Virus record (IMG/VR): IMGVR_UViG_3300025276_000005
Location: 1-57,552 of that record
Reading direction: 5' to 3' (one strand)
Length of the DNA: 57,552 nt
DNA from: a virus
A program made the translations under genes and the position numbers. How positions within the stretch are numbered: the stretch's first letter is position 1; the number at the start of each line of letters is the position of its first letter. This document shows positions 12,322-56,085 of the stretch, in pieces. The notes below the pieces were generated by a model. That model was not told where the DNA came from and searched no databases. It saw only the letters and a list, made by a program, of their open reading frames with translations.

Positions 12322-12358
12322 TAAAAAAAATAAAAGGAGTCCGCTTACACGGACTCCT
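12322..12358 (-). terminator. Rho-independent terminator after the capsid gene, GTCCG hairpin type
   Basis: On the minus strand, AGGAGTCCG pairs with CGGACTCCT (9 bp, 6-base loop), followed by TTTATTTTTTTT. The core GTCCG/CGGAC is the same as in the hairpins spread through the plus-strand early region. It ends the scaffold-capsid transcript. Confidence 0.85.
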
Positions 12359-28373: not shown

Positions 28374-28425
28374 GTAAATTATTTTGTGCTACTTTTGTTA
28401 CTACAAATCTACAAAATTTAATCTA

Positions 28426-28860
28426 ATGAATGAGGACTACCTAAAGTATTGGAGAGTTATACGCTACTTCGTAAAAGCAAAGTACAACCTAAGCCAAGGT
28501 GAGCTAGATGTTTTAATGTTCCTAAACTCAGAAGGGCATTTTGGTCAAGAAAAATTTGACGAGTTCAATGAATTGCTTAGTTGGGATAAGCATAGGTTTA
28601 AGAGGTTGTTAAGGGATGGGTGGATACAGGTGTTCAGAAAAAGGTGCGGTCCCACTAAAACGCTTTACATACTATCCTATAAGAGTAAGAGACTTATTCT
28701 CTCTATATATAAAAAACTAAGCGGGGAAGAAATCCCCACTAGCTTGTCAGGCAACCCTATGTTTGCCAAGAATGTAAAGTACACCGATAAGGTGTATCGA
28801 AATTTTATTATAGAGATGAACGCATTTATACGACAACAACGACATCGTGCTCCTGAATAA
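28426..28860 (+). CDS. Winged-helix/HTH DNA-binding protein (MarR-like), candidate regulator
   Basis: I use the ATG at 28426 (MNEDYLKYWRVIRYFVKAKY), giving 144 residues; the frame is open further upstream but that part lies in the promoter region. The layout is helices, then LSQGELDVLMFLNSEGHFGQ, FDEFNELLSWDKHRFKRLLR and a wing-like strand pair (GWIQVFRKRCGPTKTLYILS). This is a MarR-type winged helix. It is the only plus-strand gene inside the minus block and its 3' end overlaps the groES gene end by 35 bases. It could control the switch between the blocks. Confidence 0.6.
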   Translation: MNEDYLKYWRVIRYFVKAKYNLSQGELDVLMFLNSEGHFGQEKFDEFNELLSWDKHRFKRLLRDGWIQVFRKRCGPTKTLYILSYKSKRLILSIYKKLSGEEIPTSLSGNPMFAKNVKYTDKVYRNFIIEMNAFIRQQRHRAPE

Positions 28861-32380: not shown

Positions 32381-32453
32381 TGTCCGCTCAAGCGGATAGC
32401 CTTAGCTAAGGCATATGCATTCATTTTAAGCGCTTCCAGGAAACGCTATTTTT
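32381..32453 (+). other. Three consecutive hairpins, the last terminator-like
   Basis: Hairpin 1 is TGTCCGC/GCGGATA with loop TCAA (32381-32398), which needs a G-U pair. Hairpin 2 is the palindrome GCCTTAGCTAAGGC (32399-32412). Hairpin 3 is AGCG/CGCT with an inner UU/AA (32429-32447), followed by ATTTTT. Together they may be the 3' end of a plus-strand RNA or a block to read-through into the early promoter. Confidence 0.45.
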
Positions 32454-32666: not shown

Positions 32667-32829
32667 CTTCAGCAATGGGAAGTATTGCTCGTTCTTTTCT
32701 TACTAACTAACTGATTATCAGATGATTGTCCTCTAAAAGCCCCACGAGATGGGAAGGAAGACAAGAATATCCCTTTATTTCCTAGGGTTTCTGCTGATTA
32801 GGGTGAGAGACATAATGTGAGAGGATATC

Positions 32830-32895
32830 GTAATGCAGCCAAGGTGGTCACAAGCCCACAACCAAAAAGGGATGCAGAGTGAGATAACAATTAAA
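32830..32895 (+). promoter_or_regulatory. Conserved leader element, copy 1
   Basis: The element reads TAATG..., AAGGTGGTCACAAGCCCA, then AGAGTGAGATAA and AATTAAA before the ATG. A second copy at 37607-37675 keeps the same order with point changes (AAGGTGGTCACAAGTCCA). GTGG can pair with the following CCAC (CCAT in copy 2 via G-U), leaving the loop UCACAAGC. It is a probable 5' UTR regulatory element. Confidence 0.5.
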
Positions 32896-33771: not shown

Positions 33772-34458
33772 ATGAACAAATTCAACGAATTATTAGCAGC
33801 AAAAAGTGGTGTAAACATCAAGAAAGTTAATACCATTAAGGGACAGATTAACAAGCTAGAGTCTAACAAGTTTGACAAGCAGATTGAGTTATCAAGAATC
33901 TGCTGCTCAGCGGAACAATGGTTTAAGTTAGCAGAAACCAAGCAACATATGAAAGATGCAGAGATTGAGATGACGATGGACAAGTTTGGAAATGATACGT
34001 TTGGATTCAAAAGAAGCCAATGGTCATTGTATAGACAAGTGGGTAACTTACTTACTGAGAAAGAAGAATTACTTGCAACATTCATCGCTGATAGAGAAGA
34101 AAAGGTAGCTAACAATGAAACCCCAAACAAATCATTAAAGGCCTTAAAGGATTGGATGATTAATGATGGTGTAGAGGAAGCAGAAGCAGAAGCAGAAGCA
34201 GAAGCAGAAGAGGAAGCAGAAGCAGAAGCAGAAGCAGAAGAAAAGACTAACTACATTGTTAGTTTTGCTATCAAAGGAGAGCATTTTGAAGATGGCAAAG
34301 GAGTTAGTATTAGAATAGCTGAAAGCGGAATTGTAGAGGGAGACATTGAAAAGATACCAAGTGGATTGAGAAAAGAGTTAGCGAAGTTATCATCTCAGAT
34401 AGCTTTAAAGCAACCAAATGCGATTGTGGAAACCAAAGGTAAGAGTGAATCAAAATAA
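33772..34458 (+). CDS. Early protein with Glu-Ala repeat tract, unknown function
   Basis: This 228-residue protein has an N-terminal helical region with SAEQWFKLAETKQHMKDAEI and SQWSLYRQVGNLL. A pure EA tract follows at about 136-157, encoded by a GCAGAA hexanucleotide repeat. The C-terminal beta/alpha part is TNYIVSFAIKGEHFEDGKGV...PSGLRKELAKLSSQ. The repeat is likely a length-variable linker. No family is assigned; the N-terminal half has the character of a DNA-binding or partner-binding domain. Confidence 0.5.
   Translation: MNKFNELLAAKSGVNIKKVNTIKGQINKLESNKFDKQIELSRICCSAEQWFKLAETKQHMKDAEIEMTMDKFGNDTFGFKRSQWSLYRQVGNLLTEKEELLATFIADREEKVANNETPNKSLKALKDWMINDGVEEAEAEAEAEAEEEAEAEAEAEEKTNYIVSFAIKGEHFEDGKGVSIRIAESGIVEGDIEKIPSGLRKELAKLSSQIALKQPNAIVETKGKSESK
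34177..34243. repeat. GCAGAA hexanucleotide repeat in a coding region
   Basis: About eleven units of GCAGAA, broken once by GAGGAA, encode Ala-Glu dipeptides. Six-base units keep the frame, so slippage changes linker length only. Confidence 0.9.
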
Positions 34459-34464
34459 TCTAAG

Positions 34465-34492
34465 ATGGATGTCCGCTTAAGCGGATGTCCAT
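34465..34492 (+). promoter_or_regulatory. GTCCG hairpin overlapping a start codon
   Basis: ATGGATGTCCGC and GCGGATGTCCAT form a 12-bp stem with loop TTAA. Two pairs are G-U/U-G and would be mismatched in the complementary strand, so the structure belongs to the plus-strand RNA. The first base of the stem is the A of the ATG of the gene at 34465. Confidence 0.75.
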
Positions 34493-34818
34493 TCCGTATA
34501 CAAGTGAGTGCTTGTACTGATGAGACTAAAAGGTTGAAACGGGAAATTAACTTAATACTGAGTGATATGGAAATTAAAAGAATTGTAGTAGTAATGGATG
34601 TTATTACTGAGGAAAAAACCACATTATATAATGCGTTATCTCTAGAGGATAATTTAATATCTACTATCATAACTTTAACAGAAGATAGCAGGAAAATAAT
34701 GGAATTTGCGTATAGGAATAAGGTATCAATAGACGCAAAGATTGAGAGTATACAATCAAAAAATGGTAGTATTAAAGCATATAGTCAAGCATTCGACATG
34801 ATTGCTTACGAAGGATAA
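34465..34818 (+). CDS. Hypothetical early protein, 117 residues
   Basis: The chosen ATG (34465) has the typical context AATCTAAGATG, but the first ten codons (MDVRLSGCPF) are the GTCCG hairpin. A later start such as the ATG at 34568 is possible. The rest is helical (TKRLKREINLILSDMEIKRI, IITLTEDSRKIMEFAYRNKV). No motif is recognised. Short and early, so perhaps a host-interaction protein. Confidence 0.4.
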   Translation: MDVRLSGCPFRIQVSACTDETKRLKREINLILSDMEIKRIVVVMDVITEEKTTLYNALSLEDNLISTIITLTEDSRKIMEFAYRNKVSIDAKIESIQSKNGSIKAYSQAFDMIAYEG

Positions 34819-34827
34819 AATTAACTA

Positions 34828-34855
34828 ATGGATGTCCGCTTAAGCGGATGTCCAT
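34828..34855 (+). promoter_or_regulatory. GTCCG hairpin, 5' UTR
   Basis: The same 28 bases as at 34465-34492 (12-bp stem with two wobble pairs, loop TTAA), located 15 bases upstream of the next ATG. An in-frame ATG at its 5' end would give a 25-codon frame with the same first ten residues (MDVRLSGCPF). Confidence 0.75.
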
Positions 34856-34870
34856 TTAAAACAAAGCATT

Positions 34871-35041
34871 ATGATTACGACAAAACACAGAATTACATAC
34901 GCTAGATGCATTGACTCGGGGATGAGCAGTGCGTTACAGATAGCTACCATCTTTAAGATGGTGTATGACATCACAGATGGTAAAGCATTAAAGCTAACGA
35001 TGGCTTGTGCTGATTACTACAATGAAACACTAACTAAATAA
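34871..35041 (+). CDS. Small protein, 56 residues
   Basis: The frame MITTKHRITYARCIDSGMSS...ends YYNETLTK. It is helical and soluble, with an ALQIATIFKMVYDITDGKAL core. It starts 15 bases after a GTCCG hairpin, in the ATTATG context, and is followed 9 bases later by the next start. Function unknown. Confidence 0.5.
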   Translation: MITTKHRITYARCIDSGMSSALQIATIFKMVYDITDGKALKLTMACADYYNETLTK

Positions 35042-35050
35042 GCAGAAATT

Positions 35051-35200
35051 ATGAGCAAATTTACTTTAACAATCATCACAATCTTAGCTACTACGCTAAC
35101 GATTATGGTGTACACAATGTCCAATTGCCTAGAGATTAAACTTCTAATTACGCTAATGGACTTACCGATTATTTTACTGATTGCAAACGAGTTAAACTAA
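35051..35200 (+). CDS. Small membrane protein, 49 residues
   Basis: The frame MSKFTLTIITILATTLTIMV...ends LIANELN. It has two hydrophobic segments (4-22 and 30-46) with a short polar turn (TMSNCLEIK). Start context GCAGAAATTATG is like its neighbours. A role in membrane exclusion or host modification is possible but not shown. Confidence 0.5.
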   Translation: MSKFTLTIITILATTLTIMVYTMSNCLEIKLLITLMDLPIILLIANELN

Positions 35201-35205
35201 AAGTT

Positions 35206-35583
35206 ATGAAAAAGCGAGTAATTAACTTAGTAATAGATGCGTGTTATCTCATAGACAAAAAACGTGGTGTATTAAAGAATTACGAATATGAGACTGCGCC
35301 ATATTGTGGTCATCATAGGAGTGGAACAGATGGGGTTCTGTATAGTTCTTCTTACGCAGAAGGCGATGGTGGAGAGTCTGCCCATATAATTGGCTTTAGG
35401 TTTACTAAAAGCACAGATGATGAGTATTGGTGGAGTTTTAGATACAAGGTAGTGCGAGAGGTGTTTAACGATGGGTTATTTATAGCAGAGTCAAAATACA
35501 CCACATTCTTAAATGAGTTAAAGGCAGTATTCTTTTACCACAAACACGGATTCAGCCTTAGGTACAGAATAAAAACAAAATAA
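35206..35583 (+). CDS. Hypothetical early protein, 125 residues
   Basis: A mixed alpha/beta soluble protein (MKKRVINLVIDACYLIDKKR, CGHHRSGTDG, EYWWSFRYKVVREVF). Not recognised. A GHH motif with a nearby Cys might bind metal. Its stop codon is the first triplet of promoter module 1. Confidence 0.45.
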   Translation: MKKRVINLVIDACYLIDKKRGVLKNYEYETAPYCGHHRSGTDGVLYSSSYAEGDGGESAHIIGFRFTKSTDDEYWWSFRYKVVREVFNDGLFIAESKYTTFLNELKAVFFYHKHGFSLRYRIKTK

Positions 35584-35616
35584 ATTAGGTTATGTCTAAT
35601 TTATAATGTATATTTG
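35581..35616 (+). promoter_or_regulatory. Promoter module 1 with ATTAG...CTAAT dyad
   Basis: TATATTTG (-7 box, 35609-35616) is preceded by AATTAGGTTATGTCTAATT, a dyad with AATTAG/CTAATT arms in the -33 region, then TATAATG. Near-identical copies occur at 36470 and 38513. The dyad replaces the usual TTG, which suggests activation or repression by a dimeric protein. Confidence 0.65.
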
Positions 35617-35637
35617 ACTAATTAATAACTAATAACC

Positions 35638-35669
35638 TATTAGATGTCCGCTTAAGCGGATGTCTGATA
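35638..35669 (+). promoter_or_regulatory. GTCCG hairpin, 5' UTR
   Basis: TTAGATGTCCGC and GCGGATGTCTGA pair as a 12-bp stem (three wobbles) around TTAA, about 25 bases downstream of promoter module 1 and about 18 bases before the ATG at 35685. Confidence 0.7.
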
Positions 35670-35684
35670 ATTAAAACCAAGAAG

Positions 35685-36026
35685 ATGAACACGATTTTAG
35701 AAAGAAAAGTGCAATTTAGTGATGATGTAGAAGACACAATGTACACGTCTGATATAATGAGTTACTACAAGATAGACGCAGACACTCAGTTTATAAAGGA
35801 CTTTGATAATTGGATGAAAGAAGGTGGAGGAATAAACAGAGCCACATATAACCTAATTATAAGCAAGAGGGATATAGGCTTGTTTTGTTTAGGAATGAAG
35901 CCAAACGCACAATGGAGACTGAAAGACCTTAAGGCTTACTTTGGAATAAAAGGCAATAAGGAAAAGTGCAAAGAGTTGATAGAGGTATTAACAGAATTAT
36001 TTATACCACAGAGCAATGAAGGGTAA
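35685..36026 (+). CDS. Hypothetical early protein, 113 residues
   Basis: MNTILERKVQFSDDVEDTMY... continues with helices (ADTQFIKDFDNWMKEGGGIN) and a C-terminal unit WRLKDLKAYFGIKGNKEKCK that resembles a small helical DNA-binding or partner-binding domain. It is the first gene behind promoter module 1 and a GTCCG hairpin. Function unknown. Confidence 0.5.
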   Translation: MNTILERKVQFSDDVEDTMYTSDIMSYYKIDADTQFIKDFDNWMKEGGGINRATYNLIISKRDIGLFCLGMKPNAQWRLKDLKAYFGIKGNKEKCKELIEVLTELFIPQSNEG

Positions 36027-36156
36027 GGCGATAGTAATAGATGGTCACTTAGTTAAGCTAGATAAAGAGGGTAACTTCTTTAGGCTTAACGGAAGTGGTG
36101 TATGGGTGCAGATAAGTAATCAAGAACTTTTTAAAATTATAAGCGATGAAGTATAA
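36016..36156 (+). CDS. Small protein, 46 residues
   Basis: MKGKAIVIDGHLVKLDKEGN...ends FKIISDEV. It overlaps both neighbours by 11 bases (start inside the upstream gene, stop after the next ATG), which argues for coupled translation. The pattern is a compact beta sheet (VIDGHLVKLDKEGNFFRLNG). Function unknown. Confidence 0.5.
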   Translation: MKGKAIVIDGHLVKLDKEGNFFRLNGSGVWVQISNQELFKIISDEV

Positions 36157-36457
36157 AGGATGGACAAACAGAGCGACTTGGTTATTCAATGTTTACTATG
36201 GAGACAAAATAAATAACGAGGACGACTTCAACAGAGAAAAAAACCAATGCGAAGAAGATCACGAGAACCTAGTGAACACTATAGGCACTTGTATATGGTC
36301 TGATATGATTGATATTAGAGAGATAAACTTTGTCGAGTTATTTGAGACGATGAGTTCAGATTGGGATGAGTTTAAATGCGAGATGTGTGAAGAGTCAATG
36401 ACTGAGGAAGACCATCACTTTTGTGATATATGTGGAGATTGCCGGGATGGGGAATAA
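36146..36457 (+). CDS. GWTNRATW-family phage protein with zinc-ribbon end
   Basis: The 103-residue product begins MKYKGWTNRATWLFNVYYGD. The G-W-[ST]-N-R-x-T-W opening defines a widespread small phage/plasmid family of unknown function (DUF7249-like). The Cys/His-rich end (CEMCEESMTEEDHHFCDICG) probably binds zinc. It is translationally coupled to the gene upstream. Confidence 0.6.
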   Translation: MKYKGWTNRATWLFNVYYGDKINNEDDFNREKNQCEEDHENLVNTIGTCIWSDMIDIREINFVELFETMSSDWDEFKCEMCEESMTEEDHHFCDICGDCRDGE

Positions 36458-36469
36458 AATAAGTTAAAA

Positions 36470-36505
36470 TAAATTAGGTCATGTCTAATTCATAACTTAT
36501 ATTTG
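36470..36505 (+). promoter_or_regulatory. Promoter module 2 with ATTAG...CTAAT dyad
   Basis: AATTAGGTCATGTCTAATT followed by CATAACT and TATATTTG (36498-36505). It differs from module 1 by a few bases, while the dyad arms and the spacing to the -7 box are kept. Confidence 0.65.
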
Positions 36506-36531
36506 CCTAATCAATAACTAATTAACTAACA

Positions 36532-36552
36532 ATGTCCGTTCAAGCGGACTTA
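36532..36552 (+). promoter_or_regulatory. GTCCG hairpin, 5' UTR
   Basis: GTCCGT and GCGGAC pair around TCAA, closing with a T-G wobble, 28 bases after the -7 box of module 2 and about 17 bases upstream of the ATG at 36567. Confidence 0.65.
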
Positions 36553-36566
36553 TTAAAACCAAGATT

Positions 36567-36767
36567 ATGGCGCAGAAGACAATAAAGAAAGGTGAGGGCT
36601 ACGAGGTAGTCGCTCACTACACCAACAATGAGTTTGGACTTGAGGTCACATCAGTTGACTACGAGTGTAGTGTAACTAATTGTGTGGTTCCTATAGATAC
36701 CTTCCTATACGATTTCCTAAGTGTAGGAGCAATTAACGAAATGGAAGACAAACTAAAACAAGACTAA
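36567..36767 (+). CDS. Small protein, 66 residues
   Basis: MAQKTIKKGEGYEVVAHYTN... is a small beta-rich protein with two Cys (YECSVTNCVV) and a C-terminal helix. It is the first gene of the unit driven by promoter module 2. Not recognised. Confidence 0.5.
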   Translation: MAQKTIKKGEGYEVVAHYTNNEFGLEVTSVDYECSVTNCVVPIDTFLYDFLSVGAINEMEDKLKQD

Positions 36768-36771
36768 GATT

Positions 36772-36939
36772 ATGGGACAGATGAAAGAATTATTTATCTC
36801 AATGCAAGAAGGACTTATGCAAGGGATAACAATCACAAACGCTCAGCGTGAGCGTGACTTACAAGAGGAAGAGCAAGGAGAGTCGGGCAAGGTAGGAATT
36901 ATTAACACACCTAAAGACAATAGCGATGAAGAACAATAA
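36772..36939 (+). CDS. Small helical protein, 55 residues
   Basis: MGQMKELFISMQEGLMQGIT...ends DNSDEEQ. It is helical then acidic and probably disordered at the C terminus. It starts 4 bases after the upstream stop and overlaps the next gene by 14 bases. Not recognised. Confidence 0.5.
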   Translation: MGQMKELFISMQEGLMQGITITNAQRERDLQEEEQGESGKVGIINTPKDNSDEEQ

Positions 36940-37210
36940 ACTTATAGCAGAATTTATGGGGTTGAAAGAGCATAAAGGCTCATACTACATACCACTTTAT
37001 AATAGTGGGGATTGGGTTCCCGATGTTGAGTTAGATTATCACACCTCTTGGGATTGGCTTATGCCTGTGGTAATGAAAATATCAGGCAAACTAAATAAAC
37101 CTCTTGATGAGATTATTTCACTCCTTACGGAGGTTAATAGCGATAATATATGGGATATTAAGTCTTTGTATAGTGCAGTAGTAGAATTTATTAAAAACCA
37201 AACCAACTAG
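36926..37210 (+). CDS. Conserved phage hypothetical protein, 94 residues
   Basis: MKNNKLIAEFMGLKEHKGSY... has the pattern IAEFMG...YIPLYNSGDW...LDYHTSWDWLMPVVMKISGK. This is a recurrent small protein type in phages of Bacteroidota and other hosts, without assigned function. It is translated from a start inside the previous gene. Confidence 0.55.
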   Translation: MKNNKLIAEFMGLKEHKGSYYIPLYNSGDWVPDVELDYHTSWDWLMPVVMKISGKLNKPLDEIISLLTEVNSDNIWDIKSLYSAVVEFIKNQTN

Positions 37211-37215
37211 AAATT

Positions 37216-37572
37216 ATGAGTAAAGAAAGAAGTTTTACAAAGGATGACGTAGTTAATGCTATGGTAACAGAGTTACGAAAAAAGTCAATATTCGTAACCT
37301 ACAAAGGTAGAAAAATGCTACCTCAAATATCTCACCACATCCCAAAGAGTATGATTAAATCAGACAACCCAATATACCTTAGATGCTACAAGAGGCTTTG
37401 GAAAGAAAGCAGAAAGATAGATAACCCAATAGAGGTTAAAGAGCCTAAAGTTAGTCCATCTGTTATTCAAAGAGAGCGTATCGTTAAATCTTCTAGCAAG
37501 GTGGTTATAAACATGAAGGATAGAGTCATTACAATAGAGGATGGCAAAGACATCAACATAAGTTATAGATAA
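37216..37572 (+). CDS. Hypothetical basic early protein, 118 residues
   Basis: MSKERSFTKDDVVNAMVTEL... is a basic protein with an N-terminal helical unit and a C-terminal strand region (SSKVVINMKDRVITIEDGKD). Basic composition suits nucleic-acid binding. It is the last gene before a strong terminator at 37579. Confidence 0.45.
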   Translation: MSKERSFTKDDVVNAMVTELRKKSIFVTYKGRKMLPQISHHIPKSMIKSDNPIYLRCYKRLWKESRKIDNPIEVKEPKVSPSVIQRERIVKSSSKVVINMKDRVITIEDGKDINISYR

Positions 37573-37578
37573 AACAAC

Positions 37579-37607
37579 AGAGTCCGTTCGAACGGACTCT
37601 TTCTTTA
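37579..37607 (+). terminator. Terminator, GTCCG hairpin type
   Basis: AGAGTCCGTTC and GAACGGACTCT form a perfect palindrome (37579-37600) followed by TTTCTTT. It closes the unit that ends at 37572 and stands directly before the second conserved leader. Confidence 0.75.
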
Positions 37608-37675
37608 ATGTCACTAAGGTGGTCACAAGTCCATCAATCTAAGAGTTAGAGAGACAGAGTGGAGATAATTAAAAA
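37607..37675 (+). promoter_or_regulatory. Conserved leader element, copy 2
   Basis: The same order as at 32830-32895: TAATG, AAGGTGGTCACAAGTCCA, then ACAGAGTGGAGATAATTAAA, ending about 18 bases before the ATG at 37693. The changed C to T in the second arm is a G-U-compatible change in the GTGG/CCAY stem. Confidence 0.5.
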
Positions 37676-37692
37676 ACAAAACAACTAAAATT

Positions 37693-38025
37693 ATGGGATA
37701 CAGAAGCGAAGTTTACATAGCAATACCAAAGGCAGATGAGTTAGAATTAGATGCTATATTAATAGAGCACCATTTATTTGGTGGAGATTACTTTACTAAA
37801 ACTAATTATTTAGGGTACGTAACCTATCATTGCCCACATCTTAAATGGCATAGTCACTATAATGATGTAAGAGCAGTAAATGATTTTATATCAGAAATCC
37901 CTCTAGATAATTTCCCAAAAGAAGGTAGATGCTTGGTGTGTGTTGGAGAGGATGATAGGATACACTCAGATATAGGAGAATATCAAGAGGTATTCAATAT
38001 ATATACTAAAGTAGAACTACAATAG
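37693..38025 (+). CDS. Conserved phage protein, MGYRSEVY family
   Basis: The 110-residue product MGYRSEVYIAIPKADELELD... belongs by its opening to a small family seen in many tailed phages without known function. The rest is mixed alpha/beta with several His and Cys (YHCPHLKWHSHYND, CLVCVGEDDRIHSD), a possible metal site. It sits behind leader copy 2, so it may be separately controlled. Confidence 0.55.
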   Translation: MGYRSEVYIAIPKADELELDAILIEHHLFGGDYFTKTNYLGYVTYHCPHLKWHSHYNDVRAVNDFISEIPLDNFPKEGRCLVCVGEDDRIHSDIGEYQEVFNIYTKVELQ

Positions 38026-38148
38026 AAAACGAGAGTACCAAGCGTGAGTTGGGCATATAGTAAAAAGTCCTAACAGGGGTGTTAGGCAAAAGTCAGTGTC
38101 GGAAGGGGGCTTTCCTCCCCTTTCCTTCATAACTAAAACAAGACTAAG
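38026..38148 (+). ncRNA. Structured intergenic RNA candidate with three stem-loops
   Basis: Three consecutive hairpins can form in 90 bases: CCAA/TTGG (38038-38052), CCTAACA-GGGG-TGTTAGG (38069-38086, perfect 7-bp stem) and GGAAGGGG/CCCCTTTCC (38101-38125). No reading frame of interest is present. It may be a structured 5' UTR for the next gene, an RNA processing region or a separate small RNA. Confidence 0.35.
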
Positions 38149-38304
38149 ATGGACTTACGAGATATTACGATAAAGATAGAGGCATACGCCAACCAAAGAG
38201 TAATAGAGGAGTTGGAGGAGTTACTAAGAAGAGCTGAAGGTAGTGGTAGAAATATAACTAATGTTGAATTATCTTTAATAATCAAATATCTAAAACAAGA
38301 CTAA
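38149..38304 (+). CDS. Small helical protein, 51 residues
   Basis: MDLRDITIKIEAYANQRVIE...ends LIIKYLKQD. It is almost fully helical and charged, in the start context AACAAGACTAAGATG shared with the next gene, which starts 1 base after its stop. Unknown function. Confidence 0.5.
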   Translation: MDLRDITIKIEAYANQRVIEELEELLRRAEGSGRNITNVELSLIIKYLKQD

Positions 38305-38305
38305 G

Positions 38306-38524
38306 ATGCCTGCAGCAAGACAAGAGTATGTAAAAAGTAAATATCAAGGAGTATCAGGGGTTATGACTAAAGGCGTAGTTAAATGGCGTGTAAACATCGC
38401 AGGAGTAGGACGTGCTAATTTAGCTTCTGAAAGAGAATGTGCTATTGCAGTAGATAAAATTAAAATAAGTCAAGGTAAAGAACCCGTTAATATACTAAAG
38501 AGAGTTAAAATAATTAGTCTATGA
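38306..38524 (+). CDS. Stand-alone AP2-like DNA-binding protein
   Basis: The 72-residue product has the AP2/ERF pattern: YQGVSGVMTKGVVKWRVNIA (three-stranded sheet), GVGRANLASERECAIAVDKI (helix) and NILKR. AP2 domains in phages normally sit on HNH homing nucleases; here it stands alone. It may be a small DNA-binding regulator. The stop codon lies inside promoter module 3. Confidence 0.6.
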   Translation: MPAARQEYVKSKYQGVSGVMTKGVVKWRVNIAGVGRANLASERECAIAVDKIKISQGKEPVNILKRVKIISL

Positions 38525-38545
38525 CTAATTTATAACTTATATTTA
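38513..38545 (+). promoter_or_regulatory. Promoter module 3 with ATTAG...CTAAT dyad
   Basis: AATTAGTCTATGACTAATT is a perfect palindrome with 8-base arms, followed by TATAACT and TATATTTA (38538-38545). The last base of the -7 box differs from the other two copies. The dyad overlaps the stop of the AP2-like gene. Confidence 0.55.
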
Positions 38546-38556
38546 CATAATTATTA

Positions 38557-38640
38557 GTGGTCAACTTGGTTTCTCCGATGTCTTGGGGACTGAAGGATTG
38601 TCTGCTTATGGTTAATAGTCGTGACCACGTGGGTGTTTTT
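38557..38640 (+). ncRNA. Candidate small RNA with GTGACCAC motif
   Basis: The terminal pair GTGGTCA (38557-38563) / TGACCAC (38622-38628) closes a 72-base structure with an inner TCC/GGA helix. CCACGTGG and GTTTTT follow, which could end transcription. It starts about 12 bases after promoter module 3. GTGACCAC (38621-38628) is exactly complementary to GTGGTCAC in the two conserved leaders at 32830 and 37607. Confidence 0.35.
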
Positions 38641-38687
38641 AATGCTTCACCTATTCATAACGACAAAGACAGTCAAAGACATTAATT

Positions 38688-38711
38688 GGATGTCCGCTTA
38701 GGCGGACATCT
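38688..38711 (+). promoter_or_regulatory. GTCCG hairpin, 5' UTR
   Basis: GATGTCCGC and GCGGACATC form a fully Watson-Crick 9-bp stem with loop TTAG, 19 bases upstream of the ATG at 38730. This copy replaces the G-U pairs of other copies with A-U and G-C, a compensatory change. Confidence 0.7.
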
Positions 38712-40610: not shown

Positions 40611-41345
40611 ATGAAGGATGTATTAGAGAAGCTACGAGACGATGCTGAGTATTACGGAGGGGTAGGTAAGAACTACCTCTCTAACTCAGACATACAAGCG
40701 TTGCTAGGAAACATAAAAGAATTCCGTGTACCACGTGCAGACAATCCGGTATTCGCTAAGGGAAGGTTATTCCATCAACTTATACTAGAGCCTGAGAAGG
40801 CATCTGAGGTTGTTTCATTAGATATTGGCTCAAGGAATACCAAAGCGTATAAAGACTTTGTAGTAGATAACGAATTAGAGTTCTGTCTGCTAGATAAAGA
40901 GGTTAACGATATTAAGTCTTGGGTATCCTCAATGATGTCTAATATGGACTTCTTCGATATGATTACTGAGGAAGGAAATCAATATGAAATACCTAGCATA
41001 CGAGAGATTAAGGGCGTGATGTGGAAAGGTAAGGCTGACATCATAGGTAACGAATGCCTAATGGATTTAAAGACTACCGGAGACATTAAGAAATTTAAGA
41101 GGTCTGCTAGTCTATACAACTACGATAGTCAGGCATACATATACCAAGAGTTATTTGGTAAGCCACTTATATTCTTAGTGATAGATAAGACTACGCATCA
41201 GCTTGGAATATTCAGACCATCTGAGGACTTCATTAAGAGAGGAGAGCGTAAGGTAGAGAAAGCAGTAGAGGTTTACCATAACTTCTTCTCAGACAGTGCT
41301 GAAAAAAGCATTGAAGATTTCTACATTGAAGAGTACATTGATTAG
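40611..41345 (+). CDS. PD-(D/E)XK exonuclease, recombination partner
   Basis: This 244-residue nuclease of the YqaJ/RecE/PDDEXK_12 type has the pattern H55 (GRLFHQLI), WKGKADIIGNECLMDLKTTG with D143, D152 and K154, and the closing SLYNYDSQAYIYQEL (Q-x-x-x-Y). It would resect double-strand ends to give the 3' strand used by the annealing protein. Gap of 1 base from the Sak-like gene. Confidence 0.85.
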   Translation: MKDVLEKLRDDAEYYGGVGKNYLSNSDIQALLGNIKEFRVPRADNPVFAKGRLFHQLILEPEKASEVVSLDIGSRNTKAYKDFVVDNELEFCLLDKEVNDIKSWVSSMMSNMDFFDMITEEGNQYEIPSIREIKGVMWKGKADIIGNECLMDLKTTGDIKKFKRSASLYNYDSQAYIYQELFGKPLIFLVIDKTTHQLGIFRPSEDFIKRGERKVEKAVEVYHNFFSDSAEKSIEDFYIEEYID

Positions 41346-41361
41346 TCTGTTCGAACAGACT
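41344..41361 (+). promoter_or_regulatory. GTCTG palindromic hairpin
   Basis: AGTCTGTTC/GAACAGACT is a perfect palindrome of the same shape as the GTCCG hairpins with changed bases kept paired (C-G to T-A). It overlaps the stop codon of the exonuclease gene and precedes the SSB gene by 72 bases. Confidence 0.6.
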
Positions 41362-41926: not shown

Positions 41927-44314
41927 ATGTCAACATTAAACGTCACGATATTTAAAAATATCAAGGAAACTGCGACTCCATTCTACAGGGAAGTCAGTGT
42001 AGTACTACAAAGAATTAAGGAAGGGGCATCTAAAGACTTAGTAAAAAGTATACGGTCAGAGAAAGATAAGCCACAACGAAACGAACTTAAGAAATTACTT
42101 CCTGCAATATGTTTCTCAGGTACATTCACAAAAAGAAACGACACATCACTAACAGAACATAGTGGTTTAATATGCTTAGACTTTGATGGCTACCCTAAGA
42201 TGAAGGATATGCTAGAAGAGAAAGAGAGGTTGAGTAAGAACAGATACATATACTCTGTGTTTATATCGCCATCGGGTAATGGTTTAAAAGCTTTAGTTAA
42301 AGTACCACAAGATGCCGACAACCACGTAAACTACTTCAATTCTTTAGAGAAGCACTTCAACTCAGAGTTCTTTGATAAGACCTGTAAGAATATATCAAGA
42401 GTTTGTTACGAATCGTATGACCCTTTGGTTTACGTTAACGAGACATCTTCTTTATGGGATACGATAGAGGATTTAGAGTACAAGGAGATTTCAATAATCA
42501 GAGATGCTCCTACGATACCAATTACAGACGAGAATAAAATAGTTGAGATACTCGTTAAGTGGTGGACAAAGAAATACCCAATGGCTGAGGGTCAGAGAAA
42601 TCAGAATGCTTTTATTCTAGCTATGGCTTTCAATGACTACGGGGTTAATAAGAGTTTATCTTCTTACGTTCTTAACGGATACGCAAACGAAAGCTTTAAC
42701 TTGAATGAGATTGAGAGAACAATTGACTCTGCTTATGCGAACACTCAAAACTTTGGGAGTAAGTACTACGAGGATGAGGAGAGAGTTAACAACATCAAGT
42801 CTCAGTTCAGAAGAGGTGCGACAAAAAAAGAAATCCGTCAAGAATTAGAGGACTCGAATCTAGACGGAGCAGTTATCGAGTCAGTAATGACCAAAGTCTT
42901 AGACGAGAATGCTCTTAAGCAGTTTTGGACAAAGAGCGATAAGGGTGCTATTAAAATAGTTCACATCCTTTTTAAGACGTTCTTAGAGGATAACGGCTTC
43001 TATAAGTATTGTCCGGAGGGAGGAAAGAACTACGTCTTTGTAAGGGTCACAAACAACCTCATAGACCACACGTCAGAGAAGGAGATAAAGGACTTTATAT
43101 TAGGTCACTTAATTTCTCTAGAGGATTTGAGTATATATAACTACTTCGCAGATAACACTAGGTTGTTTAGAGAGGAATTCCTTACACTACTATCTACGAT
43201 TGACATCTACTTCATATCAGATACCAAAGACTCAGCTTACTTGTACTATAAGAATTGTGCAGTACAGATAACTAAGGATGGTGTTAAAGCAATTGACTAC
43301 TTAGACTTGGGTGGTTACGTTTGGAGTGACCACGTTATAGATAGGAACTTTAACATATGTGATGTAGGTAATTGTGATTACAAGACATTCATAAGTAACG
43401 TAAGTGGTAGAGACCCTAAAAGAGTCCTTACAATGGAGAGTACGATAGGGTTTATGCTACACGCACATAAGAACTTAGCTTACTGCCCTGCTATCATACT
43501 AAACGATGAGGTTATATCAGACAATCCTGAAGGTGGTACGGGTAAAGGTTTATTTATGAATGCCCTATCTAAGATGAAGAAGGTTGTTACGATTGACGGT
43601 AAGTCATTCACGTTTGAGCGTTCGTTTGCGTACCAACTTGTATCGGCTGACACTCAGATACTTGTATTTGATGACGTTAAGAAACACTTTGACTTCGAGA
43701 GATTGTTCAGTGTAGTTACAGAAGGTTTGACTTTAGAGAAGAAGAATAAGGATGCTATTAAAATTCCGTTCAGCAAATCTCCAAAGGTTGCTATAACAAC
43801 TAACTACGCGATTAAAGGTTCGGGTAATTCATTTGCTAGACGTAAATGGGAGCTAGAACTATGTCAGTACTACAGCAAAGACTTTACTCCTTTAGACGAG
43901 TTCGGAAAGTTAATGTTCGGAGATTGGGGCGATGACGAGTGGTGTGGTTTTGATAACTATATGATTGGATGCCTTCAAGAGTATTTACTTAATGGGTTAC
44001 AGTTTAGTGAGTCCACAAACGGACCGACCAAGATACTATCACAAACAACTAACCACGAGTTTATTGAATGGTGTGGTCTTGTAGAAGGTGTGGAGGGCTC
44101 AGCGTATCTACCGGTAGATGTTAAGTTGAATTGTCAGCAGTTATACTATGACTTTATGGAGGAGTATCCGCAATACTCAAAAGGCAACGGAAACACTTTA
44201 TCAAAAGCAGCGTTCTATAAGTTCTTAGTTGAGTACGCTAAGTTTAAAGAAGGTGTTAAGCCTGATGTTGGTAGAGATGTACAAGGAAGATTTATGGTAA
44301 TTAAAACAAAATAA
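41927..44314 (+). CDS. Primase-helicase: BT4734/VirE_N primase with SF3 (DUF5906) helicase
   Basis: The 795-residue product has an N-terminal BT4734-like/VirE_N domain with HSGLICLDFDGYPK (metal Asp pair 85/87) and SPSGNGLKALVKV (114-126). A primase C-terminal-type helical unit follows. Then comes an SF3/DUF5906 helicase with Walker A GGTGKG (536-541), Walker B ILVFDDV and sensor ITTNY, plus an arginine-rich RRKWELEL. It primes and unwinds at the phage origin. It lies right after the AT-rich repeat region. Confidence 0.85.
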   Translation: MSTLNVTIFKNIKETATPFYREVSVVLQRIKEGASKDLVKSIRSEKDKPQRNELKKLLPAICFSGTFTKRNDTSLTEHSGLICLDFDGYPKMKDMLEEKERLSKNRYIYSVFISPSGNGLKALVKVPQDADNHVNYFNSLEKHFNSEFFDKTCKNISRVCYESYDPLVYVNETSSLWDTIEDLEYKEISIIRDAPTIPITDENKIVEILVKWWTKKYPMAEGQRNQNAFILAMAFNDYGVNKSLSSYVLNGYANESFNLNEIERTIDSAYANTQNFGSKYYEDEERVNNIKSQFRRGATKKEIRQELEDSNLDGAVIESVMTKVLDENALKQFWTKSDKGAIKIVHILFKTFLEDNGFYKYCPEGGKNYVFVRVTNNLIDHTSEKEIKDFILGHLISLEDLSIYNYFADNTRLFREEFLTLLSTIDIYFISDTKDSAYLYYKNCAVQITKDGVKAIDYLDLGGYVWSDHVIDRNFNICDVGNCDYKTFISNVSGRDPKRVLTMESTIGFMLHAHKNLAYCPAIILNDEVISDNPEGGTGKGLFMNALSKMKKVVTIDGKSFTFERSFAYQLVSADTQILVFDDVKKHFDFERLFSVVTEGLTLEKKNKDAIKIPFSKSPKVAITTNYAIKGSGNSFARRKWELELCQYYSKDFTPLDEFGKLMFGDWGDDEWCGFDNYMIGCLQEYLLNGLQFSESTNGPTKILSQTTNHEFIEWCGLVEGVEGSAYLPVDVKLNCQQLYYDFMEEYPQYSKGNGNTLSKAAFYKFLVEYAKFKEGVKPDVGRDVQGRFMVIKTK

Positions 44315-44574: not shown

Positions 44575-45812
44575 AAACTGTTCAGTGGAGAGAATACCAA
44601 TCGGATATAATTGGTAGAGCCACAAACATACTGAAGACCAAGAACTTCGTGTACCTAGCAATGGAAGTTAGGACGGGAAAGACTTTAACAAGTCTTGGTA
44701 TATGTGAGAAAATGGAGGCTCAGAATGTTCTGTTCCTAACTAAAAAGAAAGCGGTGCAGTCAATTAGCGATGACTACGACAAGTTATGCCCTATTCGATT
44801 CACTTTGTTTACAATCAACTACGAATCAATGCACAAGGCTCCTAACTTAAAGTGGGACTTAATTATATGTGACGAGGCTCATAGTCTTGGAGCGTTTCCT
44901 AAACCAAATAACAGGTCAAAAGCTGTAAGGGATTTAATATTAAAGACTAAGGCAAAGGTTATACTCTTATCAGGGACACCAACTCCTGAGTCTTATAGTC
45001 AGATGTACCATCAGATATATGGAATCAAGGGAAACCCGTTTGCTAACTTTAAGAACTTCTATAGGTTCTGCGATAGGTTTGTAGATGTAAGAGAGAGAAA
45101 GATAAACGGTCTAATGATTAGAGATTACTCAAAAGGTAGACAAGAGATATTGGATGCGGTTAAACCATTCACTATAAGCTTAACTCAGAAGGAAGCCGGT
45201 TTTGTAACTGAGACCACAGAAGAAGTTCTTGAGGTGAAGATGCTCGATACCACGTACAACCTAGCCAAGAAGCTAAAGAAAGATTTAGTTGTTGAAGGTT
45301 CAGACGAGGTTGTGTTAGCAGACACTCCGGTAAAGTTGATGATGAAGTTACATCAGATATACTCAGGCAGTGTGAAGTTTGAGAGTGGTAACTCAAAGAT
45401 ACTTGACTACTCTAAGGCTGAATTTATTAAGGAGCATTTCAAAGGTAAGAAGATTGGTATCTTCTATAAGTTCAAGGAAGAGTTGAACGCCTTAAAGCAA
45501 GTGTTTGGTGATGAGTTAGTAACTGAGCTTAGTCCGTTCGAGCGGACTAATAAGAATATAGCCCTTCAGATTGTATCAGGACGTGAGGGCATCTCACTGA
45601 GACACGCTGACTGTTTGGTTTACTACAACATTGACTTCAGTGCTACAAGCTATTGGCAGTCAAAGGATAGGATGACAACCAAAGAGCGTCTTAAAAACAA
45701 GGTCTATTGGATATTTGCCAAGGGAGGTATTGAGACTGAGATATATAAGGCGGTTACAAAGAAGAAGGATTATACACTAAGACACTTTAAAAGAGATTTA
45801 TTATCTTTATAG
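44568..45812 (+). CDS. SNF2-like superfamily 2 helicase
   Basis: I use the ATG at 44568 (MVETVQWREYQSDIIGRATN), which overlaps the upstream stop, giving 414 residues. Motifs: Walker A AMEVRTGKT (31-39), DEAH (102-105, LIICDEAHSLG), LLSGTPTPES (motif III), and the C-terminal RecA domain with VSGREGISLRHAD and SYWQSKDRMTTKER. It is a compact SNF2-type ATPase, typical of phage replication modules. An internal GTCCG-like palindrome is at 45531-45548. Confidence 0.85.
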   Translation: MVETVQWREYQSDIIGRATNILKTKNFVYLAMEVRTGKTLTSLGICEKMEAQNVLFLTKKKAVQSISDDYDKLCPIRFTLFTINYESMHKAPNLKWDLIICDEAHSLGAFPKPNNRSKAVRDLILKTKAKVILLSGTPTPESYSQMYHQIYGIKGNPFANFKNFYRFCDRFVDVRERKINGLMIRDYSKGRQEILDAVKPFTISLTQKEAGFVTETTEEVLEVKMLDTTYNLAKKLKKDLVVEGSDEVVLADTPVKLMMKLHQIYSGSVKFESGNSKILDYSKAEFIKEHFKGKKIGIFYKFKEELNALKQVFGDELVTELSPFERTNKNIALQIVSGREGISLRHADCLVYYNIDFSATSYWQSKDRMTTKERLKNKVYWIFAKGGIETEIYKAVTKKKDYTLRHFKRDLLSL

Positions 45813-48155: not shown

Positions 48156-48251
48156 TATATTTGCTCTGACTATTGTACTAAATGAGTTGAACTTGACGTT
48201 GACATGTGTAGTTCTATTGGAGAGTCCGTGTGAACGGACTCTCTTTTTTTT
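48156..48251 (+). ncRNA. Candidate small RNA between a promoter and a terminator
   Basis: TATATTTG (48156-48163, a -7 box) is followed at about 57 bases by the hairpin GAGAGTCCGT/ACGGACTCTC (48220-48229 with 48234-48243, loop GTGA) and a run of eight T. No frame longer than a few codons lies between. The predicted transcript is about 80 bases. A -33 element is not clear, so the promoter could also be incidental. Confidence 0.45.
48220..48251 (+). terminator. Terminator of the early block, GTCCG hairpin type
   Basis: A 10-bp GC-rich stem with loop GTGA followed by eight T. It stands at the point where the plus-strand early block and the minus-strand late block converge; the last base is inside the final codons of the giant gene's stop region. 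Confidence 0.9.
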
Positions 48252-54200: not shown

Positions 54201-56085
54201 TTACCTTAGCTCTATCTTTTGCAGGCTGAGTCTCGTTTGACTTTAAGTTATCCAACTCTACCTGTAGCTTTGTTATCGCATCAAGTGTTGGCTTGTTCAT
54301 GTCAGGACTAACTTTCTTTATATCTTCACTAACTATAGCTTCCTTATACTTCTCATCGTATATAGACTGAAGCTCATTGTCATTTACAATATTGACCTCA
54401 GCTTTAATTAAATCCTGAGGTGAAGCCTCTCTAATAAATTTAGCCATATCAGGACCTGTAACTCTAGCATCCTTACCCGTACCATTGATGGAGTATTTTG
54501 GTGCTTTATATAAACCATAACCCACCGTTAGTGGTGCTGTTGCTGTACCTGCGATACCTTCAAAACCAATCTCAGCAATATCCATCTCCTGACCTGCAAC
54601 CAATCGTCCACCAACCTCACCAAGCGAACCACCAACAGCTTCAACTGCACCACCTGCCGCACCTGCTAAAAGTTTACGACCTGTCATTCCTGCTACCTTA
54701 CCAACAACTTTAGTTGCTATCCCACCTGAGATAGCGTCAATAGCTCCAATAGTAAGACCACGTCCAACAGCCTTAAAACGGATGTTGTTCATCTTCTCTT
54801 GATTCCCTAAAATTTCTCTAATATTTTCTTCAGTCATCTCCTTCCCGCCAAGTTCCTCTTGTAGTAACTCAGCGTATGTAAGACCCGTCTCAAGTGTAGT
54901 ACCTGCCATTCCCATCGCACCAATAAGAGCACCTGCAGGACCTGCGATTGCTGCACCTGCCGCAGCACCACCTGCTGCACCTGCCAAGGTAGCCGGTGTA
55001 GCCATAGCACTTACTGAGGATACAAATAATTGTGGTATAACTGTAGGGTTTGCGATAACACCCTTAATGAATCCTAACCAACCTCCACCATCAGCTTGGT
55101 ATATCTTCTGAAAGTCACGCATCTCATCTGACTCACCCATAGACTGCATACGTTTCTGTGCTGCAATGAAGTCATCAATATCTTCTTGAGAAGCGTCTGA
55201 GCCTTTAGCAAACAACTCAAGTGCTTCATCTACTGAACCACCCTGTGCTTGACCTGCTGCACCCGCTCTATATAAGTCACCAAATAAATCTGTGATTTCA
55301 TTCTTACCAAATACTCTCTCAATCAAAGTGTCTTTCTCTCCCGCAACATCCTCTGTTCCTTTTGAGAAGTCAATAACTTCAGGAGTAAAGTCTGTTGGAA
55401 CAGACTCTTCGATAACACTTAAGGCTTCTTCTTTTGTTATACCGGTATCGTCAGGGTTAATACCTGTAGCTTCCATATAATCAGACTTCCAACGAGTAGG
55501 ATGGTCTTTTGATTTCAAATCTACTCCACCCTCGCCTTTACTTCCCCAATGATACATACCATCAACTTCATTAGTTTGAGGTATAATGCCTGCCTTCCAA
55601 GCACCACGATAGTCGTAGTTTGAATTGTCAATTTGAGGTTCCTCACTATAGGCTTGCTTAAACTCTTCTCTCCAAGCTACAACATTTGGGTCTGTAGCCA
55701 TCCAATTTTGAAACTCAATCTCTTCCTGCTCTGTTAGTGTAAAGTCCGTTGGAACAGACTCTTCAGTAACTTCAGGAGTAAAGTCTATTGCAACAGGCTC
55801 CTCAACTTCTTGAGTAGAAGACTCCAATAATACAGGTTCCTCCTGCTCTGTTGGTGTAATGGATTCCGTAACGTCCTCTTGAATAGTGGAAACGGATTCG
55901 TCTTTTTTTTTTAATGTAAAGTTTTCTAGAGAACCAATATCATACCCCTCTTCATTAAAGAAAGAATATAACTCCTCTCTCTTTACGTCATCAGTTAATG
56001 CAGATATAAAATTATTTAAGTCACCTAAATCGTAACCCTCTTGATTGAAAAAATCAAATAACTCTTGAGCTTTAATCTCGTCCAT
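48250..56085 (-). CDS. Giant ejection protein with zincin metallopeptidase motif (T7 gp16 position)
   Basis: The 2611-residue product begins with two about 27-residue repeats (ELFDFFNQEGYDLGDLNNF and ELYSFFNEEGYDIGSLENF; 8-57). An acidic linker follows with repeated ESVPTDFTPEV, then a YDYRGAWKAGIIP..DGMYHWGS..HPT module (157-197). Hydrophobic Ala/Gly-rich regions at 350-405 and 440-525 may span membranes. A zinc-metallopeptidase motif PIHEFGHIW (H1270, E1271, H1274) with downstream E1321/E1326 matches the MPTase-PolyVal domain of polyvalent proteins. Long helical regions follow, then a basic C terminus (KKKKKSKSTKRGIRNKGKF). It is last in the gp13-16-like cassette. Confidence 0.75.
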   Translation of the reverse strand: MDEIKAQELFDFFNQEGYDLGDLNNFISALTDDVKREELYSFFNEEGYDIGSLENFTLKKKDESVSTIQEDVTESITPTEQEEPVLLESSTQEVEEPVAIDFTPEVTEESVPTDFTLTEQEEIEFQNWMATDPNVVAWREEFKQAYSEEPQIDNSNYDYRGAWKAGIIPQTNEVDGMYHWGSKGEGGVDLKSKDHPTRWKSDYMEATGINPDDTGITKEEALSVIEESVPTDFTPEVIDFSKGTEDVAGEKDTLIERVFGKNEITDLFGDLYRAGAAGQAQGGSVDEALELFAKGSDASQEDIDDFIAAQKRMQSMGESDEMRDFQKIYQADGGGWLGFIKGVIANPTVIPQLFVSSVSAMATPATLAGAAGGAAAGAAIAGPAGALIGAMGMAGTTLETGLTYAELLQEELGGKEMTEENIREILGNQEKMNNIRFKAVGRGLTIGAIDAISGGIATKVVGKVAGMTGRKLLAGAAGGAVEAVGGSLGEVGGRLVAGQEMDIAEIGFEGIAGTATAPLTVGYGLYKAPKYSINGTGKDARVTGPDMAKFIREASPQDLIKAEVNIVNDNELQSIYDEKYKEAIVSEDIKKVSPDMNKPTLDAITKLQVELDNLKSNETQPAKDRAKVIKEEIKNLQENPITEGEARETDITVDGDDVSTTTNVVTEEFAAKKLAEEGVINPTPEQISEKQQQILKEQADAIQEPSTETVDVQEQAGDSQTVGEGDSEVSELTTETTQEVQESDVSPEVQAEVDAIEADERIDLSELDAITPTEEVVAEESTPRFRLDGLETQDQETSAITEEMNKMDKNEIEFKASGASRDYEVNPIKESNSIKKITQKALDFIGVKSENDLLKPLDFFDGIPMLTGMSDILASGTVKDAQGNNMDVDGGIMFNILGKNTEAAWAGVNEDGAKTQFDNAVRLYEENKVLFDKLWDDGKLPQGHVPMAIARMSDSAINSNEAIFRYVSPAIKSAPKKNQVKALADLQVSLDKAKTSSQKSTVGKKKVAAAIKLQEFIKKNKIKTLGQLADLVVKQANQRAKGDMNTLTLDDRKLLFESIIYPPGAKKNNRAVIKSLAEGNPKFNVDAFFADNIYKAIGEPSMIKGAHGDIVAVVGIDVTDKGGVTKVSHDNYGFGPKGKAIALISKPKHGIDVFSTWKAKASRVFKRNKKGEFPTKEATAQQVGGAFFNDKVFQSDPAKTKQSNLDILIGKLKFAFPSVNVATSQVEFDAILDQPGVRTQESNGKTILGLTKDGKIFINPAFDSLATPIHEFGHIWTDFLRSDASGKKGTALLARGLKLVEGTDALKAAIEKYGDTKLAREEALVELMATKGETITNAAQKSKFKEWMNATFKYIKQNFTTSDELFKGNIKDIENLTLDEFINTGLADLFSGKPLDAKSKTKFDAKAEAQASKARFELGDSSNKKAVKSAVEKLRGLGYSEVVIGELLKQKGVESNLISEVLATNKKSAPKAKVTEDLVPGSKKVENAIDDIIKRTQDRANKKNNNKGPKNITPKVSQEILLKNAIEYLKSTPLYERASDVVREELVRGVRKKLSLKEKSSPSKATLDSNFGKEITTTDKKLYAKRLKDLQEGAKTAQQAIQESSKLITENVKALVKKGSITNGQAQRILNRFAKVDVLNEVSIDSFMDYMANVYNKSEDKYKKTLISEIRKRVSKSAKKTKSVDADSQQFFEVMEAVLNKVLATIDGKPVKIDADDIKKSLFPDIDTILQKEFSELTNKEKSQLYASEIFESVDGLRDMSLEQVEQLLEDIKRGQEGGRMELKKKLDAFRAEVKETKNQADKDIEDGYSELFEDGKPKDKNQLDSDRDDRRIELFGKGLGEAINKYAKEFSYTNVGKMLQAIGNNLKHLGTLTNGLDKVGSFFTENVYNALNKMESVYTKGLQNTRTKMDEIAKTIDGIDSYKDIKKKLATGVHKITGLKTSKGGVLSSDSFNADQLMRLYALSKNKVQRDKLLAQGLTDSKLKEIESILGKEVVEFVDKTVEYLSTEYFENTNEVYSDVNNVNLGYVDNYFPTQTIQTKVNADLLENGDFSGVFNAQTAPALKERVDLTGDVDLRGSDFTSTLQDHFETIERYKGYAKGVKKMNAIFKFKSVNTLLTETGLGKAVKNAINYAVNPNGGKAAIQSNLVDKLMTKYTGFALAFKAVQILKQSTSFVNAFEDYSYRGKGKSKVPGLDLLMFMVDGAKVIATMPSQIKKAWNLSPMFQERLLKGLEGDVYGLETGSVTYKPASQSQKSKAFRMLKAAAGSPTVLGDVLGVMGYMINFNRDIANGMSEADAVAKFEDYNTTQQSRRSTDKIPLQMDSNSLVRGFTMFGSTVFLQMNKVMQSTTNILRSVSQGEKPSAKSVRGLVLNLGVANVMFALAANIAKFIKGEDEDREEALDKMKDAMMGLNLIYQIPYFGASAEEAVNKMRGNSSRPIDSVVNPFSSVSRKFTKLAKLSKEDKENGESKAIGSAVRTLTEIGLGVQFDPFIGLANAFQGDFSEENMYDVLGVSSSYRPKGTSETQIKKDKLGQYNSETDMKRYDKALWRKTFGPESEGYLDRVAEKKAKAIERKAKQAEKDALYNYKKKKKKSKSTKRGIRNKGKFSGR

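Follow-up and report, generated by a model that had tools for sequence, protein, structure and literature searches.

Genome-specific palindromes in phages of Bacteroidota: candidate stoperator-like sites of a predicted helix-turn-helix protein that also occur as RNA hairpins

The window analysed here is a 57,552-base virus record of IMG/VR (IMGVR_UViG_3300025276_000005), in which early genes occupy the plus strand and late genes the minus strand. Both strands carry copies of a short palindrome, the subject of this report, and the early region also encodes a protein of 228 aa, here called protein B, which is a candidate for binding it (Table 1). The exact core of the palindrome, GTCCG-N6-CGGA[C/T], was found at 12339, 32382, 34471, 34834, 35646, 36534, 37582, 38692, 45532 and 48224, i.e. 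ten times, compared with a mean of 0.01 and a maximum of 1 in 300 shuffles. A previous inspection of this DNA without database searches (the sequence-only reading) had listed eleven hairpin copies, and all of them were recovered, the eleventh being the variant GTCTGTTCGAACAGAC at 41345. Two further copies (55390 and 55744) were detected on the minus strand, within a gene for a protein of 2611 aa. The window holds two stem sequences, or words: most copies have GTCCG[C/T], while those at 41345, 55390 and 55744 carry the GTCTGT half site of a relative (G001), one of them as a hybrid.

On the sense strand, the sites at 34471, 34834 and 35646 fold with -19 to -20 kcal/mol; their wobble pairs exist in the sense RNA only, the opposite strand having C-A mismatches at the same positions, as had been proposed. 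The fully Watson-Crick stem at 38692 and the change of C-G to T-A at 41345 were likewise found. These compensatory changes had been taken to demonstrate selection on RNA structure, but those of the window alone are not decisive, since a DNA dyad read by a protein also predicts symmetric changes. U-tracts follow three window copies only (strong after 12339, on the minus strand, and 48224, weaker after 37582), and a T-tract was present at 24 of the 145 noncoding copies surveyed below, so that an intrinsic terminator was rejected as the explanation of most copies, in line with the sequence-only reading. A late site with a T-tract, placed like the copy at 12335-12358, occurs in many relatives. The earlier description of the family as standing in front of early genes proved too narrow: the copies at 45532, 55390 and 55744 lie in coding sequence, the one at 41345 overlaps a stop codon and that at 12339 belongs to a late operon.

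Table 1. Palindrome copies, the gene of protein B and ribozyme-like sequences in the window
Feature	Position	Strand	Remarks
Palindrome copy with T-tract, intrinsic terminator-like	12335-12358	-	Late operon, between 12371-13804 and 11551-12303
Palindrome copy GTCCGCTCAAGCGGAT	32382-32397	+	Noncoding, 5' of early block
Gene for the 228-aa protein B, a candidate binder of the palindrome	33772-34458	+	Predicted helix-turn-helix at residues 69-96
Palindrome copy, wobble-extended stem	34466-34489	+	12 nt past the stop of gene B
Type III hammerhead-like sequence	34491-34544	+	Predicted cleavage between 34498 and 34499
Palindrome copy	34829-34854	+	Start codon 21 nt downstream
Palindrome copy in leader	35639-35668	+	23 nt 5' of start codon 35685
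Palindrome copy in leader	36534-36549	+	17 nt 5' of start codon 36567
Palindrome copy, weak T-tract	37579-37606	+	3' of gene 37216-37572
Twister-P1-like ribozyme, sub-threshold	37602-37665	+	Directly 3' of the 37582 hairpin; E 0.0011, 28.3 bits, gathering score 67.2
Palindrome copy, stem entirely Watson-Crick	38688-38711	+	22 nt 5' of start codon 38730
Palindrome copy GTCTGTTCGAACAGAC	41345-41360	+	Overlaps exonuclease stop codon
Palindrome copy in helicase coding sequence	45532-45547	+	Site common to many relatives, in each genome's own word
Palindrome copy with T-tract, terminator-like	48221-48248	+	Between convergent blocks
Palindrome copy GTCTGTTCCAACAGAC	55390-55405	-	In 2611-aa late gene
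Hybrid palindrome copy GTCTGTTCCAACGGAC	55744-55759	-	In 2611-aa late gene

Relatives were gathered with the primase-like protein encoded at 41927-44314, which yielded 80 viral loci, and a DNA search added an annotated phage (MW202828). The hosts of the more distant relatives are Flavobacterium and other Bacteroidota; matches in the genome collection were to metagenome-assembled contigs or bins only. A de novo scan revealed that many of these genomes have one dominant hairpin family, the stem word of which differs by genome. One such family each is present in about 20 related phages, at roughly 4-17 copies per genome, with the words GTGTCT, GTCCGT, GTCTGT, GTGTCG, GTCTCG, GTGTAC and others. 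There are 16 copies of GTCTGT in G001, 15 and 13 of GTCCGT in G003 and G004, 14 of GTGTCG in MW202828 and up to 14 of GTGTCT; in five genomes compared with shuffled sequence, the leading family numbered 10-16 copies and the shuffles gave 2 at most. No palindrome family was found in the distant Flavobacterium phage elemoF or Maribacter phage Panino.

A survey of 200 copies with no more than one mismatch, taken from all genomes, defines the core. Stem positions 1 and 2 are nearly fixed across words and the other four vary by genome, the whole word being fixed within one genome. The two loop edges are conserved to a similar degree (T in 187 and A in 181 of the 200), and the two bases between them are variable. 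The core has the look of a symmetric 7+2+7 site, GTNNNNT-NN-ANNNNAC. Coding sequence holds 55 of the copies (about 27%), which have no outer pairing, whereas the 145 noncoding ones have a mean outer pairing of 2.76 bp versus 1.09 expected. Most noncoding copies sit in short gaps between co-oriented genes, and a promoter-like motif lies just upstream of 17 of them (88% are without one).

The copy in the helicase gene, where present, is spelled in the genome's own word, and the helicase residues shift with it (SVFEDT, GLFQQT, SPFERT, SLFEET, SVFEHT). The site at the exonuclease stop (41345 in the window) is also occupied in relatives, each time with their own word. That the word changes in concert over copies inside and outside coding sequence implies a trans-acting reader. 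Purely structural RNA hairpins, serving as 3'-end caps, processing stems or terminators and owing their identical stems to duplication, would need no such reader; terminator-like and ribozyme-associated copies do exist, and one relative (G007) has a hairpin family in the absence of protein B, but the concerted change in protein-coding sequence and the tie to protein B described below would be left unexplained, and this possibility appears quite improbable. Near-identical copies dispersed between small early genes might also have been spread by recombination, as palindromes of a selfish or shuffling kind (REP/MITE- or PeSL-like cassettes). This is very improbable, as the copies have only the 16-bp core in common, with different flanks, and distant relatives have the sites at orthologous positions but in other words.

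Protein B is the candidate for the reader. It is present in 20 of the 22 genomes with the family and in none of the 8 without it (Fisher p 8e-6, uncorrected for kinship); in one of the two exceptions (G018) the sequence probably ends before the gene, and the other (G007) does seem to be without it. When protein B alone served as the query, the family was present in nearly all loci retrieved, and near-matches in most of those where exact copies numbered fewer than two. This sample leans to the GTGTCT type because the putative recognition helix is part of the query pattern. The six columns of protein B with the best separation between GTGTC and the remaining words (90, 96, 77, 86, 73 and 95; kinship not corrected) all fall inside the predicted helix-turn-helix. 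At a primase identity of 0.74-0.80, the identity of protein B was 0.27 for genome pairs with different words versus 0.41, and the same comparison gave no gap for the helicase, portal and terminase and small gaps for Sak and GroEL. A search of a virus library with protein B returned four homologues. A run of GAAGCA-type repeats (34161-34252) lies in the acidic linker of the protein.

Another potential regulator is encoded at 28384-28860, facing opposite to the late genes; it occurs in most relatives and, as a distant version, in phage elemoF, and the annotation of MW202828 calls it a repressor. It was not the first choice for the reader, since its conservation hardly depends on the word: a GTCCGT phage and a GTGTCT phage have almost the same comparable helix.

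The explanation that we favour, to which we give an even chance, is that the palindromes are phage-specific stoperator-like dyads bound by protein B, which double as RNA hairpins at mRNA boundaries. Each phage of the group would possess its own dispersed 16-bp dyad, composed of two 7-base half sites and a variable 2-base centre, and the rapidly evolving protein B, with its predicted helix-turn-helix, would bind to these dyads. Bound there, it may act on transcription crossing the short intergenic gaps, in a stoperator-like manner, and probably also on its own gene. Covariation shows that, where the dyad is noncoding in relatives, it also makes up the tip of an RNA hairpin selected at the RNA level, either as stem III of a type I hammerhead ribozyme or in a leader about 20 nt before a start codon; further copies are found immediately 5' of type III hammerheads or as a terminator stem. 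One element might plausibly be both a protein site and an mRNA boundary. We lean towards DNA rather than RNA as the target of protein B, on account of the dyad symmetry, the predicted helix-turn-helix and the copies in coding sequence. The pairing of palindrome and protein B points to a previously undescribed system of gene control.

Several observations weigh against this explanation. Two other proteins follow the presence pattern of protein B: protein C, which we ourselves read as amidoligase-like (it has no Pfam match), is present in 19 of the 22 genomes with the family and 0 of the 8 without, and protein A, with cyclotransferase and amidotransferase domains, in 20 of the 22 and 0 of the 8. 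The link between protein B and the word may therefore partly be clade history. Two relatives have a family with no detectable protein B, namely G007 (GTTCAC) and G037 (four GTGTC copies), and the window and G003 use the same GTCCG word with protein B sequences that are only 29% identical. No convincing match to protein B was obtained in Pfam, PHROG or PDB, and a PDB fold search yielded nothing meaningful. At noncoding sites the loop centre is strand-biased (CA about 54, TG about 13), and noncoding stems contain 16 G-U pairs against 5 C-A mismatches, both of which fit RNA recognition better than DNA recognition.

The window encodes protein B and lacks proteins A and C. In the relative L010, the amidoligase-like protein (868-1824) and the cyclotransferase/amidotransferase protein (5667-6596) are of kinds seen only in genomes with the palindrome family. 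In G007 (locus L020), which has no protein B, the family lies in the early region and has the form GTTCAC-N4-GTGAAC, with a fully variable loop.

A role in organising or partitioning phage DNA, as for KorB/ParB- or MatP-like sites, rather than in regulating transcripts, would agree with short palindromes dispersed over noncoding and coding DNA in both early and late regions and with a protein bearing a predicted helix-turn-helix. It appears improbable, since noncoding copies are mostly placed in narrow gaps between co-oriented genes and searches of Pfam and PDB gave no ParB-like match to protein B.

Selection at the RNA level is supported for the noncoding sites of relatives. The leader of the cyclotransferase-type gene is represented by 32 distinct sequences, which are 100% paired, and an alignment of type I hammerheads (22 sequences) has all counted cells paired; both sides have changed in 8 of 10 leader pairs and 10 of 12 hammerhead pairs. 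One outer pair of the orthologous leader hairpins is U-G in 16 cases and never A-C. The claim of selection on RNA structure thus stands for these covarying leaders and hammerheads. Five leaders keep the hairpin though the word is lost, which suggests that the RNA role is separable from the word.

These data bear on the possibility that the RNA hairpin itself is the recognised form, with protein B or another phage factor binding the transcript in a boxB-like way and controlling its processing or stability, its translation, or antitermination; those copies that lie in coding sequence would then act within the mRNA. It would account for the covariation of outer stems, the preference for UCAA over UUGA at the loop centre of noncoding sites, the incorporation of the hairpin into ribozymes and the position of leader copies about 20 nt 5' of start codons. 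We consider it somewhat unlikely, because the loop centre varies while the stem word is fixed and the loop edges are symmetrically conserved, five leaders have the hairpin and not the word, and copies in coding sequence are devoid of an extended stem.

At the position in L010 equivalent to the window copy at 34829-34854, the hairpin forms stem III of a type I hammerhead. One hammerhead of this layout in L010 reads GGTTAA-CTGATGA-GACTTGAATAGTC-GAA-ACGTGAGTCTGTTCCAACAGACTTGCGT-C-TTAACC. A search over all loci identified 29 candidates of type I, and the reversed controls gave none; 3 were judged spurious by eye, and 13 of the remainder carry their own genome's word in stem III. These hammerheads have the CUGANGA and GAAA cores, three stems, the NUH cleavage site and covarying stems, while their scores against RAGATH-1-hammerhead of Rfam (RF03152) are 24-32 bits, below the gathering score of 56.3; at gathering level, a scan of seven relatives gave no hammerhead. 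None of type I was found in the window itself. Hammerheads with different stem III sequences are present in genomes without the palindrome family, so the ribozyme and the palindrome are distinct elements that have been brought together.

Some copies, including that at 34471 in the window, sit just 5' of type III hammerheads. The window sequence (34491-34544) has the type III core, a closed stem I, stems II and III and an NUH site; it scored 13.4 bits against Hammerhead_3 (RF00008), far below the gathering score. Both hammerhead layouts would leave the hairpin close to where the RNA on the upstream side has its 3' end. It is also conceivable, though rather improbable, that protein B binds the palindrome in nascent RNA, hammerhead stem III included, and switches self-cleavage on or off. 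This would make a natural system of protein-controlled ribozymes, in which polycistronic phage mRNA is cleaved or left intact by a lock and key particular to each phage. The sequence-only reading had offered processing sites, stabilisers or binding sites as functions: this is right in part, as some copies lie in or beside ribozymes, some are terminator-like, and all are probably binding sites.

Other structured sequences were noticed as well. A second twister-P1-like match (32827-32885; E 0.00029), also below the Rfam gathering score, has AAGGTGGTCACAAG[C/T]CCA in common with the one at 37602-37665. In two relatives (L037, 5372-5430, and L032, 1621-1690) a lookalike of a tRNA acceptor and T-arm follows the hairpin directly, with no remainder of a tRNA; it might be an RNase P-type signal, and ARAGORN called no tRNA at either place. 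In the window, the noncoding sequence 38044-38125, between early genes, folds strongly. A conserved structured sequence, GTGGTC...GACCAC around a CTCCGATGTCTTGGGGACTGAAGG core, stands upstream of equivalent genes in the window (38555-38630) and in L010 (6595-6670), and had no convincing Rfam match.

If the favoured explanation is true, the palindromes and protein B would be a second example, apparently unrelated to the first, of scattered regulatory sites that are specific to a phage and evolve together with a single protein. It would come from phages of Bacteroidota, in which little is known of gene control. A recognition code could then be read directly from the numerous word and protein pairs that occur naturally. 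The overlap with self-cleaving ribozymes is unusual and makes protein control of phage ribozymes, as well as gene-by-gene setting of mRNA ends, testable.

Several known systems have features in common with the one described here. Lambda N binds the boxB RNA hairpin, which belongs to the nut sites of two operons; in lambdoid phages, as here, a phage-specific RNA hairpin varies together with a phage-specific protein, but the present family has up to 17 copies per genome and a variable loop centre. Dispersed palindromes read by a helix-turn-helix protein are known from the KorB operators of RK2 and from ParB/parS. Protein B, with its predicted helix-turn-helix, would resemble these, whereas there is no sequence match and the site differs between close relatives. 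The PeSL cassettes of T4-type phages are also stem-loops between small early genes. They are tied to early promoters, unlike the noncoding copies surveyed here with their few promoter-like motifs (17/145), and, in contrast to REP/MITE repeats, the palindromes share nothing beyond the 16-bp core and occupy orthologous positions with a changing word.

Phage hammerheads were described in 2011 from prophages, several per genome, flanking small phage genes (PMC3088659). Those of the present group are similar in their core (CUGANGA...GAAA), three stems, NUH site and occurrence of several per genome beside small genes, and differ in their sub-gathering Rfam scores and in that stem III of many is the genome-wide palindrome of the phage. 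A combination of hammerhead and genome-wide word was not found described in the literature searched.

The stoperators of cluster A mycobacteriophages (L5, Bxb1, TipsytheTRex) are sites of 13-14 bp without dyad symmetry, oriented with transcription, of which each genome has 20-30 copies, mostly intergenic and not associated with promoters; the structure of the immunity repressor has been solved (PMC6550527, PMC9283540). The palindromes differ from them in being symmetric 7+2+7 dyads with only the 2-base centre strand-biased, in occurring also within RNA hairpins and ribozymes, and in being fewer than in L5 (about 4-17) with 27% in coding sequence. Pfam, PHROG and PDB searches gave no convincing relation of protein B to the L5-type repressor, and no integrase was found among the window proteins scanned, which are a part of the total. 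In both cases, many short sites are dispersed mostly over short intergenic gaps away from promoters, and a genome-specific consensus diverges together with one phage protein, which here is not fully corrected for kinship. In layout and co-divergence, the cluster A stoperators are the nearest analogue of the palindromes.

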